Assembly (NCBI GenBank): GCA_903861645.1
Contig: CAIOVE010000031.1
Coordinates: 1 to 44,414, forward strand
Origin: an uncultured Hyphomicrobiales bacterium
Lineage (GTDB): Bacteria > Pseudomonadota > Alphaproteobacteria > Rhizobiales > Beijerinckiaceae
DNA length: 44,414 nucleotides
Direction of reading: 5' to 3'
Shown in pieces: positions 3,079-15,232 of this stretch (the stretch's first letter is position 1; each line of letters begins with the position of its first letter). The translations under genes were made by a program, and so were the position numbers. Below the pieces are notes generated by a model. It made no database searches. It was given only the letters and a program-made list of their open reading frames with translations, and was not told the origin of the DNA.

Positions 3079-3831
3079 TCAGCGCGTCCGCCACGTGGCG
3101 AGAACGCCATCGATCCAGGACCGTTGCGGCGCGACCAGCGCGCCTTGCGTAAGCGCGCCGCAATGTGAAGGCGGAACGCCCGTGGACCAATTCGTGATGG
3201 CCACGACGGTCGCGTCTGACTCCGCGAAAATCGGCCCGCCGGAATCGCCCGTGCAGGCGCCAAGGGCGTGGCCATCGGCGCCTTCCGCCCAGAGCAGGAT
3301 TCTGGACAGGGGCGCGCGCGCCGCTAGCGGGCCCCAGTGAAACGTTCCTCCGCTCGCGCCAACGCCCTCGCGCGTCAATCCATATCCGGCGATCCTGAAG
3401 CGTTGCCCGATGGTCGTGCTTGCGTCGTCCGACAGGTTCGCGGCCGCGAAACGTTCGGGCAGCGCCGTCGTCAAAAGCACAAGCGCGAGGTCAATGGATT
3501 TCTCGCGCGTGACGATCGCGTTGGGGCGATAGCCAGGATGCGTGGCGATGGCGGCGACCGGGCGCATGATTGGCTGTCCGTTGGCGTCGCGAAAGTGGAC
3601 GGCGGTATTGGCGGCGTCACGAACGCAGTGCGCCGCGGTCAACACGATGTCCGAGGCGATAACGACGCCGGTGCAAAACGACGCTGCTTTCGCCTGCCGG
3701 GCGAGAACCATGACGACATGGCGCTCCAGTGGGCCGTGATCCGCCGAAGGTCCGACGATGGCGGTCGCCCCGCGCGGCGCGGCGAGGCTCGCCGCGATCA
3801 TAAAGATCATCAGGATCGTCGAATGCTTCAT
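3079..3831 (-). CDS. Secreted trypsin-like serine protease (peptidase family S1)
   Basis: A 250-residue protein with a signal peptide (residues 1-24, cleavage near ATA) and a chymotrypsin-fold protease domain. The catalytic triad is complete: His68 in LTAAHC, Asp114 in KSIDLALV and Ser197 in CTGDSGGP. Cys53/Cys69 should form the usual disulphide around the catalytic His. Export to the periplasm or outside is expected. The gene runs against the capsid and connector genes on either side, with gaps of 26 and 52 nt, so it cannot be on their transcript. Whether it is a cargo (moron-type) gene or takes part in particle release cannot be told from the sequence. Confidence 0.9.
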   Translation of the reverse strand: MKHSTILMIFMIAASLAAPRGATAIVGPSADHGPLERHVVMVLARQAKAASFCTGVVIASDIVLTAAHCVRDAANTAVHFRDANGQPIMRPVAAIATHPGYRPNAIVTREKSIDLALVLLTTALPERFAAANLSDDASTTIGQRFRIAGYGLTREGVGASGGTFHWGPLAARAPLSRILLWAEGADGHALGACTGDSGGPIFAESDATVVAITNWSTGVPPSHCGALTQGALVAPQRSWIDGVLATWRTR

Positions 3832-5669: not shown

Positions 5670-6017
5670 ATGAGCGCCAACACACACCGGGGCGACGTCA
5701 GCGCCCATCTTGGCGGCAAGACCTATGTGCTCAGACTGACTCTGGGCGCGCTCGCGCAGATGGAGTCGGCGTTTGGCGCGACGGATCTTGTCGCGCTCGC
5801 GAGCCGGTTCGAGCAGGGGCGGCTGTCGGCGCGCGATCTGCTCGTCATCATTGGCCTCGGGCTGCGCGGCGGCGGAGCGGCGATCGCCGACGAGGAAGTC
5901 GCGGCCATGTCGGTCGAGGGCGGATTGCAAGGCTATGTTCGCATCGCCGCCGACTTGCTCGCCGCCACGTTTGGCGCCGACGCGTCGCGCGAGAGCGAGG
6001 CGGCAAACCCTATCTAG
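5670..6017 (+). CDS. Gene transfer agent family protein, GTA g10-like
   Basis: A 115-residue protein beginning MSANTHRGDVSAHLGGKTYV. It contains LRLTLGALAQMESAFGATDL, the conserved block of the GTA gp10 family that occupies the tail-chaperone position between tail tube and tape measure. The C-terminus is alanine-rich and ends EAANPI at a TAG (6015-6017). The next gene lies in the -1 frame, has no ATG/GTG/TTG before 6089 and is open through this stop. A ribosomal frameshift at A-AAC-CCT (6005-6011) is therefore possible, in which case this product would also exist as a longer fused form. Confidence 0.85.
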   Translation: MSANTHRGDVSAHLGGKTYVLRLTLGALAQMESAFGATDLVALASRFEQGRLSARDLLVIIGLGLRGGGAAIADEEVAAMSVEGGLQGYVRIAADLLAATFGADASRESEAANPI

Positions 6018-6265
6018 CCGCCGATCGCGCGATATCCGAGCCAACCCGTTTCAAGTCCGGCCACGAGGCCTTTCCCTGGGACGAGGCAATGGCGTTCGGA
6101 TTCGGCGTTCTGCGGCTGTCATCCCATGCGTTCTGGTCATTGACGCCGCGAGAACTCGCCGCGGCGATCGATGGCGTTCACGGACGCGCGCGCGTTGATC
6201 AGCCGACGTCGCGCGCGACGCTGTCGCGGCTCATGGCAGCCTTTCCAGATGGAGACAATCGATGA
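6011..6265 (+). CDS. rcc01693-type small tail protein (GTA g10.1-like), start uncertain
   Basis: This frame encodes a peptide containing HEAFPWDEAMAFGFGVLRLS then SHAFWSLTPRELAAAIDGVH, ending AAFPDGDNR. It is the pattern of the small g10.1/tail-assembly-chaperone family: an aromatic FPW motif, GLRLS and FW.LTP.EL. No ATG, GTG or TTG lies upstream of the conserved FPW block. The first canonical start is the ATG at 6089, which gives 58 residues and drops that block. The frame is open back through the end of g10, at least to about 5921. The coordinates given assume entry by -1 frameshift from g10 near 6005-6011. The TGA overlaps the next ATG (6262-6265). Confidence 0.6.
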   Translation, partial: YLAADRAISEPTRFKSGHEAFPWDEAMAFGFGVLRLSSHAFWSLTPRELAAAIDGVHGRARVDQPTSRATLSRLMAAFPDGDNR

Positions 6266-6852
6266 CCGATCTGACAACGGCGGGCGCGTTCGTCGCGCAG
6301 GATCTCAATCAGGTCAAGACATCGCTCGATAACATAGGGCTTGCGTCCGACAAGGTGTCGAGCAGTCTGACAAGGACATTCGCCAACGCCGTCGTCGCTG
6401 GAAAATCATTCGACATGACGCTGCAATCCGTGCTGACGAATCTCTCACGCGTGGCGTTGAACAGCGCGCTGCAACCGGTGACTCAAGGGTTGACCAACGG
6501 CGTCAATTCGTTGCTTGGCGGGCTGCTCGGCGGACTTTCCGGTGGATCGGGACTGGCGGGCGCGACTAGCGTTGGCGTTCAGCCATTCGCGGATGGCGGC
6601 ATTGTGGCGCGGCCGACGTTCTTCGGCGCGGGCGGTGGCCTAGGCCTGATGGGCGAGCGGGGCGCCGAAGCCATTCTGCCGCTGGCGCGCGGACCAGGCG
6701 GCGAACTGGGCGTCGTCGCGCGGGGGCAGGGCGGCGGCTCGAATGTGCAAGTCAACATCTCGACGCCAGACGCGGCGTCGTTCCAGCAATCGCAGGTTCA
6801 GATTTCCGGCGCGCTCGCGCGCGCGGTCGCTCGTGGGCAACGGGGATTGTAA
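6262..6852 (+). CDS. Short tail tape measure-like protein, GTA g11-like
   Basis: A 196-residue protein. Its N-terminal half is helical (QDLNQVKTSLDNIGLASDKV, TRTFANAVVAGKSFDMTLQS). A glycine-rich hydrophobic stretch follows (LLGGLLGGLSGGSG, about 85-100), then the block FADGGIVARPTFFGAGGGLG with GERGAEAILPL, which is common in C-terminal tape-measure regions. RcGTA g11 is also only about 220 residues, so the small size is normal for this lineage and not a truncation. It is translationally coupled by ATGA to the preceding small gene. Confidence 0.85.
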   Translation: MTDLTTAGAFVAQDLNQVKTSLDNIGLASDKVSSSLTRTFANAVVAGKSFDMTLQSVLTNLSRVALNSALQPVTQGLTNGVNSLLGGLLGGLSGGSGLAGATSVGVQPFADGGIVARPTFFGAGGGLGLMGERGAEAILPLARGPGGELGVVARGQGGGSNVQVNISTPDAASFQQSQVQISGALARAVARGQRGL

Positions 6853-12772: not shown

Positions 12773-15232
12773 ATGAGCGATACGCCCAATCTCGGCTTGC
12801 CCTATATCGACGCCGCGCAGGCGCAGAAGCACGTCACCCATAATGACGCGCTTTCGGAACTCGACGCGGTCGTGAACCTTGCGGTCAAGCAGCGCAACAT
12901 CACGTCCGCGCCATCGGCGCCCTTGGCGGGGGATCGCTATATCGTTGGCGTCGGCGGGGTCGGCGCGTTCGCCGGGCACGACGGCGCGGTGGCCTATTTC
13001 GTCGACGGCGCCTGGCTTTTCGCGACGCCACGATCGGGCTGGCGATGTTTCGTCGAGAGCGAATCCGCCCTTCTGATTTTCATCGCGGGCGCCTGGGTCG
13101 ACGCGGGCGCGGCGATTCACGCGTTGCAAAATCTGTCGACGCTGGGCGTTGGCGTCGTCGCCGACGCGTCTCATCCGCTATCGGCGAAGCTGAACGGGGC
13201 GCTGTTCACCGCGCTTTCCAGCGCCGAGGGCGGCTCGGGCGATCTGCGCCTGACGCTGAACAAGAGTTCGGCGGCGAACACGGCTTCACAGATTTATCAG
13301 GACGGCTATTCCGGTCGCGCCGAGACCGGGCTTTGCGGCGACGATCATTTTCACGTCAGGGTATCTTCCGATGGCGCGGTCTGGCGCGACGCGATCAATG
13401 TGGACCCCGCGACTGGCTTGGTCTCATTCCCCGCTGGTGTCGCTGGCGGGTTGAACACGATCTGGAATGGCGTTGGCGCGCCTTCCGCGAGCATTGGCGT
13501 CGTGGGGGACTTCTATCTCGACACAGCAAACGCGCGGATTTACGGTCCGAGGGCCGCGGGTGGCTGGCCGACAGCGGGACTTTCGTTGGTTGGACCCGCT
13601 GGAGCGACCGGCGGCGTCGGGCCACAAGGGCCCGTGGGTCCGGCTGGCGTCGTGGGGCCCGCGGGCACCGTCGGGCCTCAGGGACCGGCGGGTGCGAATG
13701 GCATATCGCGGTTGAATCGCGCGCCCACGATCAGCGATGACCAATCCATTGGCTATGCCGCGAACTCGACATGGCTGAACGCCGGCAATGGCGATGTCTG
13801 GCAGTGTCTGGCGTCGACGACCGGCGCCGCGGCGTGGCAGAAAACGGGAGCTTCGCGCGCGCTTCCGCTTGACGCCGCGCCATCCGCCGCGGCGGCCTAT
13901 GGCGTCACGCGCCTGCGTCGCGCCTACGCGGGCAATGCGTTTCAGATCAAGCGCCTCTCGGATAACACAACGCTTGACGTTGGCTTCGTCAACGATGTCG
14001 CCGACTTCGGCGCGGCGGACGCGTTCTGTCAGGGAACGACGGGCGTATTCGCCAAATGGTACGATCAGTCAGGCAATGGCCTTGACGCGCTCGCCGGCGC
14101 CAATCCGCCGCGTCTGACATTCAATACGGTCAACGGCTTTCGCGCGATATCATTTTCAACGCTTGGCGGCGCCTATCAATCGTTCAATGTGCCCGCGGGC
14201 CTCTCGCTCGCGCGCAACAATTATTCCGTCTTCATGGTTATGATGTCGACGGGGCACGCGCAGGGACAGACAAGTTATGTCGTTAATGGCACGGACGCGT
14301 CGTACCTCAACAACTCGCTGCTGATCAGCGCCAACACAGGCCGGTTTCAGGCCGTGGCCAACGCGTTTCCTGTTTTCTTCAACGCCGACGCGGAACCGAC
14401 GGCGCTTATTCTGTCGTCGGGCAACACGAGCCTGACCCTGACGGCCAATGAACAGAGCGCGACCGCGGCGGCGCCATTGACCGCCTCGAGCCTCGTTGGC
14501 GGAGCCATCGGCCTTTATTCCGGTTACCTTTTCATGGGCGAGGCGATGGCCTGCGCGTTTTATGCGCGCGCGCTGTCGTCCACCGAAACGTCCTCGCTCA
14601 AGAACGCCGCCTATCAGCAGTTTCGGATGACTCCGCAACTGCTGGACCGGCTCGTTCTGATCGCCGACAGCATTGGCGCGGGCGCCGACGCCGATGTCGC
14701 GATGCCCTGGTCGCGGCAGGCGCGCGATCTTTTCACGACACGACCCTGGCGTATTTTCAACCAGGGCGCGTCGGGTCAGACGGCGGCGTGGTTTGACGCC
14801 AATTACGCCGCCAACACGGGGCCTTTGAAACAGGCGGGCGTTCGCAACATCTTGATCATCAGTCTTGGCACGAACGACATCGCGGCCGGGACCGCGGCGA
14901 CCGCCATATACGCCTCGTTGAGCAGCCTTGTCGGCAAGGCGAGGGCGACGGGTTACACCGATATCGGCATGGCGACCATTCTGCCGCGCTCCAACACAAC
15001 GCTCGCGGGCGGCGGCGCGGCGCAGGAAACGGTGCGGCTCGCCCTGAACACGCTCATTCGCGCGAATGGCGCGGGCGCGGACTTTATCGTCGATGTCGGC
15101 GCGGATTCCGTCATGGGCGCCTATGCGAATGTTGGCGACGCGACACTTTATGTCGGCGGCCTGCATCCCACGGCAAGAGGGCAGGCTTATCTCGCGCGCG
15201 TTTACGCCGCGGCGATCAATGCCAGGGTCTAG
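12773..15232 (+). CDS. DUF2793 tail protein with collagen-like, arabinofuranosidase-like and SGNH hydrolase regions
   Basis: An 819-residue mosaic. Residues 1-110 are DUF2793 (MSDTPNLGLPYIDAAQAQKH), a common phage tail-fibre anchor. Residues 274-312 are 13 consecutive Gly-X-Y triplets rich in GPA/GPQ, collagen-like (nt 13592-13708). About 365-600 resemble the alpha-L-arabinofuranosidase B lectin-like fold (YGVTRLRRAYAGNAFQIKRL, KWYDQSGNGLDA). The C-terminus (about 625-819) is an SGNH/GDSL esterase: Ser633 in IADSIGAG, GTND at 699-702 and His798 in GGLHPT. The Asp normally three residues before the catalytic His is Gly here. It is probably a receptor-binding or glycan-modifying tail component; the assignment of the middle region is less certain. 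Confidence 0.85.
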   Translation: MSDTPNLGLPYIDAAQAQKHVTHNDALSELDAVVNLAVKQRNITSAPSAPLAGDRYIVGVGGVGAFAGHDGAVAYFVDGAWLFATPRSGWRCFVESESALLIFIAGAWVDAGAAIHALQNLSTLGVGVVADASHPLSAKLNGALFTALSSAEGGSGDLRLTLNKSSAANTASQIYQDGYSGRAETGLCGDDHFHVRVSSDGAVWRDAINVDPATGLVSFPAGVAGGLNTIWNGVGAPSASIGVVGDFYLDTANARIYGPRAAGGWPTAGLSLVGPAGATGGVGPQGPVGPAGVVGPAGTVGPQGPAGANGISRLNRAPTISDDQSIGYAANSTWLNAGNGDVWQCLASTTGAAAWQKTGASRALPLDAAPSAAAAYGVTRLRRAYAGNAFQIKRLSDNTTLDVGFVNDVADFGAADAFCQGTTGVFAKWYDQSGNGLDALAGANPPRLTFNTVNGFRAISFSTLGGAYQSFNVPAGLSLARNNYSVFMVMMSTGHAQGQTSYVVNGTDASYLNNSLLISANTGRFQAVANAFPVFFNADAEPTALILSSGNTSLTLTANEQSATAAAPLTASSLVGGAIGLYSGYLFMGEAMACAFYARALSSTETSSLKNAAYQQFRMTPQLLDRLVLIADSIGAGADADVAMPWSRQARDLFTTRPWRIFNQGASGQTAAWFDANYAANTGPLKQAGVRNILIISLGTNDIAAGTAATAIYASLSSLVGKARATGYTDIGMATILPRSNTTLAGGGAAQETVRLALNTLIRANGAGADFIVDVGADSVMGAYANVGDATLYVGGLHPTARGQAYLARVYAAAINARV

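Follow-up and report, generated by a model that had tools for sequence, protein, structure and literature searches.

How is a tail protein made when its reading frame offers no start codon? The question arises in an uncultured Hyphomicrobiales bacterium (Beijerinckiaceae), at a junction between two genes of a gene transfer agent (GTA). The window, as we call the whole stretch of DNA analysed here, comprises positions 1 to 44,414 of contig CAIOVE010000031.1 on the forward strand (assembly GCA_903861645.1, a draft genome of 108 contigs). It contains a syntenic head-tail cluster of the RcGTA type, with genes in the order prohead protease, HK97-type capsid, connector, head completion, tail proteins, g10, g10.1, short tape measure, DUF2460, hub, and NlpC/P60. 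The portal and terminase genes are found close to an end of a second contig (C78:586-2279), so the GTA cluster has probably been split by assembly. The source genome contains one PF09550 match.

Two other genes of the window were noted in passing. A trypsin-like protease gene (3079-3831, minus strand) lies on the opposite strand between the capsid (g5) and connector (g6) genes of the GTA cluster. On the 3' side of the GTA tail genes, positions 12773-15232 encode a long protein in which DUF2793 and GDSL-lipase parts are accompanied by a weak collagen-like match; the gene may be tail-associated or serve in host recognition.

The g10/g10.1 junction in the window

Genes g10 and g10.1 are two open reading frames between the major tail protein and the tape measure, the second in the -1 frame. 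The features of this region, all on the plus strand, are as follows.

5670..6017, +: g10, PF11836 Phage_TAC_11 (GTA-gp10), Pfam E 7e-30; 115 aa, the short 0-frame product
5993..6001, +: Shine-Dalgarno-like stretch GAGCGAGGC, core GAGG at 5997-6000, upstream of the slippery site
6005..6011, +: slippery heptamer AAACCCT, read A AAC CCT in the g10 frame and AAA CCC after a -1 slip
6011..6265, +: -1 frame extension with the g10.1 domain, an open frame without a start; PF09550 E 8e-19, TIGR02216 E 6e-19
6015..6017, +: g10 stop TAG, its G shared with a conserved GCC
6017..6024, +: place of a conserved downstream element (consensus GCCGCAGG; here GCCGCCGA), beginning 5 nt after the heptamer
6071..6253, +: g10.1 block FPWDEAMAFGFGVLRLS..., matched by the PF09550 and TIGR02216 profiles
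6089..6091, +: first in-frame ATG of the g10.1 frame, inside the conserved block (FPWDEAM); a rival internal start
6262..6852, +: g11 tape measure, RcGTA type, NF058675 E 1e-42, 146 bits, under the curated cut-off of 220

A preliminary description of this DNA had reported that the g10.1 frame lacks a start before its conserved block and is open backwards through the end of g10. Our frame scan agreed on both points: no stop interrupts the frame between 5666 and the TGA at 6263-6265, and it contains no ATG, GTG, or TTG before position 6089, which falls inside the block. Between the heptamer and FPW, ATA 6032 is the sole codon of the wider set ATG/GTG/TTG/CTG/ATT/ATC/ATA. In a scan of 5670-6090, AAACCCT at 6005-6011 is the only XXXYYYZ sequence inside g10 in any register, the other in the scanned region being TTTCCCT at 6071, past the g10 stop. 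An in-register XXXYYYZ occupies 1 of 113 g10 positions, and when the codon order of g10 is shuffled, 2.2% of trials have one among the final 14 codons. The heptamer lies in the g10 frame as described, and a -1 slip on it enters the g10.1 frame exactly; its end is separated from the TAG by 3 nt (one codon, ATC), however, and not by the four nucleotides first given.

We consider that g10.1, the second tail-building helper protein and without a start of its own, is most likely made by ribosome slippage at the end of g10. Most ribosomes would end at the TAG at 6015 and release g10 (115 aa). A minority would pause while AAC occupies the P site and CCT the A site and, aided by the upstream Shine-Dalgarno (SD)-like sequence, slip back by one base onto AAA CCC. 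Translation in the -1 frame would then yield a g10-g10.1 fusion, conceptually 198 aa, serving as the long form of a tail assembly chaperone. The predicted tryptic peptide crossing from g10 into the -1 frame is ESEAANPYLAADR. Transcriptional slippage would be unlikely at this site, because AAACCC has no long homopolymer run.

Comparison of relatives

At genus level, PF09550 was matched in 28 of the 51 genomes searched; the corresponding figures are 154 of 248 for the family, 189 of 297 for the order, and 41 of 289 for the class. These samples overlap, and only part of the matches were fetched. Loci from these searches (n = 115), further regions from the family and order lists (n = 120), and named loci (n = 23) made 258, from which removal of 3 without g10 and 7 duplicates left 248 distinct rows with both domains, the window being one. 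A second sample, the best 80 of 508 IMG/VR loci, was taken through the same steps and gave 69 rows new to the analysis. A start was defined as ATG, GTG, or TTG in the g10.1 frame, from about 12 nt before the end of the g10 domain to FPW.

The frame of g10.1 relative to g10 is -1 in 233 of the 248 rows, +1 in 10, and the same in 5; among the IMG/VR rows (best 80 of 508 loci), it is -1 in 65 of 69. This recurrence speaks against a decayed gene or a sequencing indel, a reading for which one could cite the draft state of the genome (108 contigs) and the division of its GTA cluster over two contigs, and which we regard as extremely unlikely.

The preliminary description had suggested comparing this junction across relatives, and in both samples the absence of a start goes with the presence of a heptamer. 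Among start-less -1 rows, 76 of 107 have an in-register heptamer from which the frame is open to FPW (12 and 7 in the other registers), compared with 49 of 126 rows with a start (6 and 0). Across the 233 -1 rows, window included, this association has a Fisher P of 1e-6. In the IMG/VR sample (best 80 of 508 loci), the heptamer is present in 12/13 start-less rows vs 5/52 with a start (P = 1.8e-8, kinship ignored), and the other registers account for 1 and 0 of the start-less rows. Taken by family majority, the association gives P = 7e-5, or 4e-6 when TTG is not counted as a start. When the tree was taken into account by a test of independent pairs, the association did not reach significance (27 pairs, of which a mean of 4.1 spoke for it, 0.9 spoke against it, and 21.9 were uninformative; median P = 0.29), nor did it with TTG not taken as a start (2.4 for, 0.7 against, 15.9 uninformative; median P = 0.63). 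Therefore, part of the row-level strength reflects common ancestry.

All 161 in-register heptamers in the 233 rows are open to FPW. For those lying upstream, the count is 117 of 117 against about 85 expected without constraint, a figure not corrected for relatedness, and in the IMG/VR rows (best 80 of 508 loci) the frame from every in-register heptamer likewise reaches FPW without a stop. Heptamers in register occur in 24 family codes and are not unique to the window. The stricter set of 79 -1 rows with no ATG, GTG, or TTG anywhere from the upstream stop of the g10.1 frame to FPW includes 58 with a heptamer. In two loci of the CCCTTTCCC type (L103 and L112), just 3 and 4 codons separate that upstream stop from FPW, and none is a start; the sequence there, CCC TTT CCC TGG, offers C CCT TTC and T TTC CCT in the g10 frame. 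In relatives, though not in all start-less rows, the slippery site is kept or replaced by another slippery site.

Heptamer and start are not strict alternatives. A heptamer is missing from 31 of the 107 start-less rows, 26 of which retain an in-register CCCT. Conversely, 49 rows have both a heptamer and a possible start, and in 35 of these the start overlaps the g10 stop. Eight of the 35 read AAACCCTTGA, in which the TTG arises because the heptamer abuts TGA; most of the others have AAACCCT further upstream. The preliminary description had held that relatives with a clear ATG directly before FPW, in an otherwise identical arrangement, would refute a frameshift. Some relatives (e.g., Nitrobacter, Rhodopseudomonas, and Devosia) do have an unambiguous ATG or GTG ahead of FPW, but they are not otherwise identical, as these examples have no heptamer.

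Collectively, the comparison strongly supports programmed -1 frameshifting as the reading of these sequences, and the possible frameshift first proposed for the window gains support from two samples of relatives.

Conservation of the FPW codons and the internal ATG

In the 132 rows whose g10 stop precedes FPW, the codons of this motif vary synonymously: F is TTT in 83 and TTC in 35; P is CCC in 80, CCG in 21, CCA in 15, and CCT in 12; and W is TGG in 126. Conservation as protein, with synonymous variation, indicates that FPW is translated. This bears on the possibility that g10.1 is started independently at ATG 6089 (or ATA 6032), in which case it would be a shorter free protein and the heptamer would be incidental. 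The ATG is present with a GAGG just upstream, and two phage records have g10.1 annotated from the equivalent internal ATG. A start there would nevertheless drop FPWDEA, although F, P, and W are conserved as protein; in relatives with an ATG or GTG start, FPW comes after that start; and the association between heptamer and missing start would be left unexplained. We judge independent initiation to be unlikely.

The two phage records, from sewage and freshwater (L262/L263; MW091529 and MW462191), have a GTA-like gene order and carry AAACCCTTGA. With g10.1 annotated from the internal ATG, they lose FPWDEA or FPWAVL.

One relative of the same family, L157, has g10 and g10.1 in a single open reading frame. 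It is the sole such case among the 248 rows, and none was found in 20 further regions or in the 69 IMG/VR rows (best 80 of 508 loci). Its linker GGPSHAVDAARPFPW (GGPSHAVDA) matches the -1-frame reading GPSQAVDA...ARPFPW of its relative L156. L157 comes from one draft genome, so an indel error is possible.

A structure model of g10 (pLDDT 81) gave several BFVD matches named tail assembly chaperone (best TM 0.66, E 1.3e-3) and others named tail tube; a PDB fold search with it returned no match (best E 3.5). The g10 model thus appears to resemble some predicted phage tail assembly chaperones. The g10.1 model (pLDDT 60) was too poor for a fold search.

Overlapping starts and stops

Many relatives have a 4-nt start/stop overlap (NTGA) at the junction, with ATGA, GTGA, or TTGA in 107 of the 233 rows, and g10.1 might be reached by termination-reinitiation in the group of the window as well, from a non-standard start. 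A CTG overlaps the TGA in 33 of 90 rows of the later-stop sub-type. Yet the stop of the window, TAG, is overlapped by CTA, and 11 of the 50 homopolymer sites of the later-stop sub-type have no NTG overlapping the stop. Reinitiation is plausible for TTGA lineages without XXX (16/20 early-stop rows vs 9/22 with XXX) and may be real in them; for the junction in the window, we consider it very unlikely. Initiation at CTG or another non-AUG codon was also assessed by the codon overlapping the stop, which proved not to be consistent.

The sub-type to which the window belongs, AAACCC(T/C)nnn-stop, has 10 members including the window, 9 of which end in TAG.

Kinds and fine structure of the slippery site

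The candidate -1 frameshift sites fall at different places. After the g10 domain, we found AAACCCT and also TTT and GGG versions. At the ATFG end of g10 are CCCTTTG and CCCTTTC, and on the FPW codons themselves are CCCTTTC and TTTCCCT, where g10 ends 16-19 nt into the next domain. GGGAAAG, which is the slippery site of phage lambda, occurs in some members of the order and class (eight rows are labelled by GGGAAA). A few rows have CCCGGGG, a kind of site that E. coli data suggest to be weak (PMC4066793, in the part available).

To avoid favouring the heptamer, we anchored sites by CCC N6 GCCGC in the g10.1 register, ignoring XXX and the last base, which gave a single candidate in each of 99 rows. 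A homopolymer triplet precedes CCC in 58 of the 99 (AAA 53, TTT 4, GGG 1), compared with 5-11 at each of the five codons upstream; the remaining 41 CCC sites are without XXX. CCC is followed by T in 92 rows, by C in 6, and by G in 1. When GCCGCNGG alone served as the anchor (84 rows with one), the expected position held CCC in 77 and XXXCCC in 44. An earlier anchoring was biased because it preferred homopolymers and T among candidates, and its figures (72/132 homopolymer, neighbours 4-13, T/C 129/132) are not used.

In the available part of the E. coli study, the six tetramers that are prone to shift in the presence of a pseudoknot include C_CC.U and C_CC.C, CCN codons ending in a pyrimidine shift better, and A_AA.C_CC.U is outside the motifs named strongest (PMC4066793). 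The T or C as last heptamer base in 98 of 99 rows fits that pyrimidine preference, and the CCC tetramers offer a possible basis for sites without XXX.

Flanking signals

Complementarity to the anti-SD sequence shows a sharp minimum in 8-nt windows starting 18 to 14 nt upstream of the site, with means of -4.3 to -4.7 kcal/mol, compared with -1.7 or weaker at starts -45 to -22. About half of the rows reach -5 or lower, and the minimum is also seen in 41 heptamer rows whose g10 runs into FPW. In the window, the duplex reaches -6.5 kcal/mol (8-nt window starting 9 nt before AAA), the SD-like core being nearer to the slippery site than the group minimum. An SD-like sequence upstream of the site is thus present; its stimulatory role would match the SD-like upstream stimulators of frameshifting described in the available part of PMC4066793.

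A downstream stem-loop or pseudoknot was considered as a stimulator and rejected: in 72 rows, downstream RNA showed no stability excess over shuffles at offsets 7, 12, and 60 (mean z 0.03, 0.08, and -0.03). Upstream windows at -55 and -48 are mildly stable (mean z -0.45 and -0.59), and that at -110 is not.

The element GCCGCAGG is conserved 5 nt after the slippery site, also where the g10 stop precedes it. In such rows, codon +15 is GCA in 24 of 42, whereas 7% of all Ala codons in these genes are GCA. At window positions 6017-6024 and homologous places, GCA is thus strongly preferred over GCC or GCG even after the g10 stop. No RNA structure was found for GCCGCAGG.

Discussion

The GTA genes g10 and g10.1 are very probably expressed like G and GT of phage lambda, by a -1 frameshift whose fusion product would be the long form of the tail assembly chaperone. 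The two systems share two overlapping open reading frames between the major tail protein and the tape measure, a -1 shift (here predicted) on a slippery heptamer close to where the first frame ends, and a second frame without its own start. They differ in that the present junction lies in a GTA, that its heptamers are AAACCCT and other C-rich kinds (CCCTTTC, TTTCCCT, CCCTTTG), that an SD-like sequence lies upstream, that the place of the site varies, and that other relatives have ATGA or GTGA overlaps instead. With the dnaX-type -1 frameshift of E. coli, the junction shares an SD-like sequence upstream of the slippery site, but no downstream stem-loop was detected here. The internal Shine-Dalgarno spacing of the dnaX type is about 10 nt.

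The tail-assembly-chaperone frameshift is conserved among tailed phages (Xu et al. 2004, as cited in the available parts of PMC3711429, PMC5009743, and PMC3556154). The GTA of R. capsulatus has the same g10 family (pfam11836) and gene neighbourhood, and PMC11409702 names its g10 and g10.5 "tail chaperone 1 and 2," the second of which we take to be the g10.1 gene; the word "frameshift" is absent from the available text of that paper. As far as their available texts go, the GeneTack study (PMC3711429) describes an HK97-like tail chaperone cluster without "gene transfer" or "GTA," PMC8601537 reports a tail-chaperone frameshift in most of its R. capsulatus phages without mention of "g10," and one GTA survey (PMC9765227) did not use g10.1 because it is under 300 nt. 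The preliminary description knew of no report of a GTA g10/g10.1 frameshift, and we found none in the available texts of the open-access literature searched. An open-access search for AAACCCT with frameshift gave no phage-tail work among the matches listed. Judged from sequence, this would be a known mechanism in a place where the open-access literature searched does not report it.

More broadly, we give about even odds to a view of the GTA tail-chaperone junction as a natural series of recoding signals. In start-less lineages, the slippery heptamers would be of four or more kinds and would occupy three positions: behind the g10 domain, at the ATFG end of that domain, or on the FPW codons with which the next domain is read. 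They would alternate with ATGA/GTGA coupling and, at least once, with an in-frame fusion. A new composite signal, SD-like + AAACCCT + N5 + GCCGCAGG, in which GCCGCAGG acts at the nucleotide level, would be used by one large group.

The g10/g10.1 family is a ready comparative set for the gain and loss of slippery sites in GC-rich genomes. If the frameshift is real, g10.1 can be mis-started in annotation, as in the two phage records. It would also mean that virus-derived particles which have ceased to spread as viruses still retain a chaperone ratio set by frameshifting, with a slippery site that has been renewed in varying form. Retention of this ratio would argue for functional selection on GTA tails.
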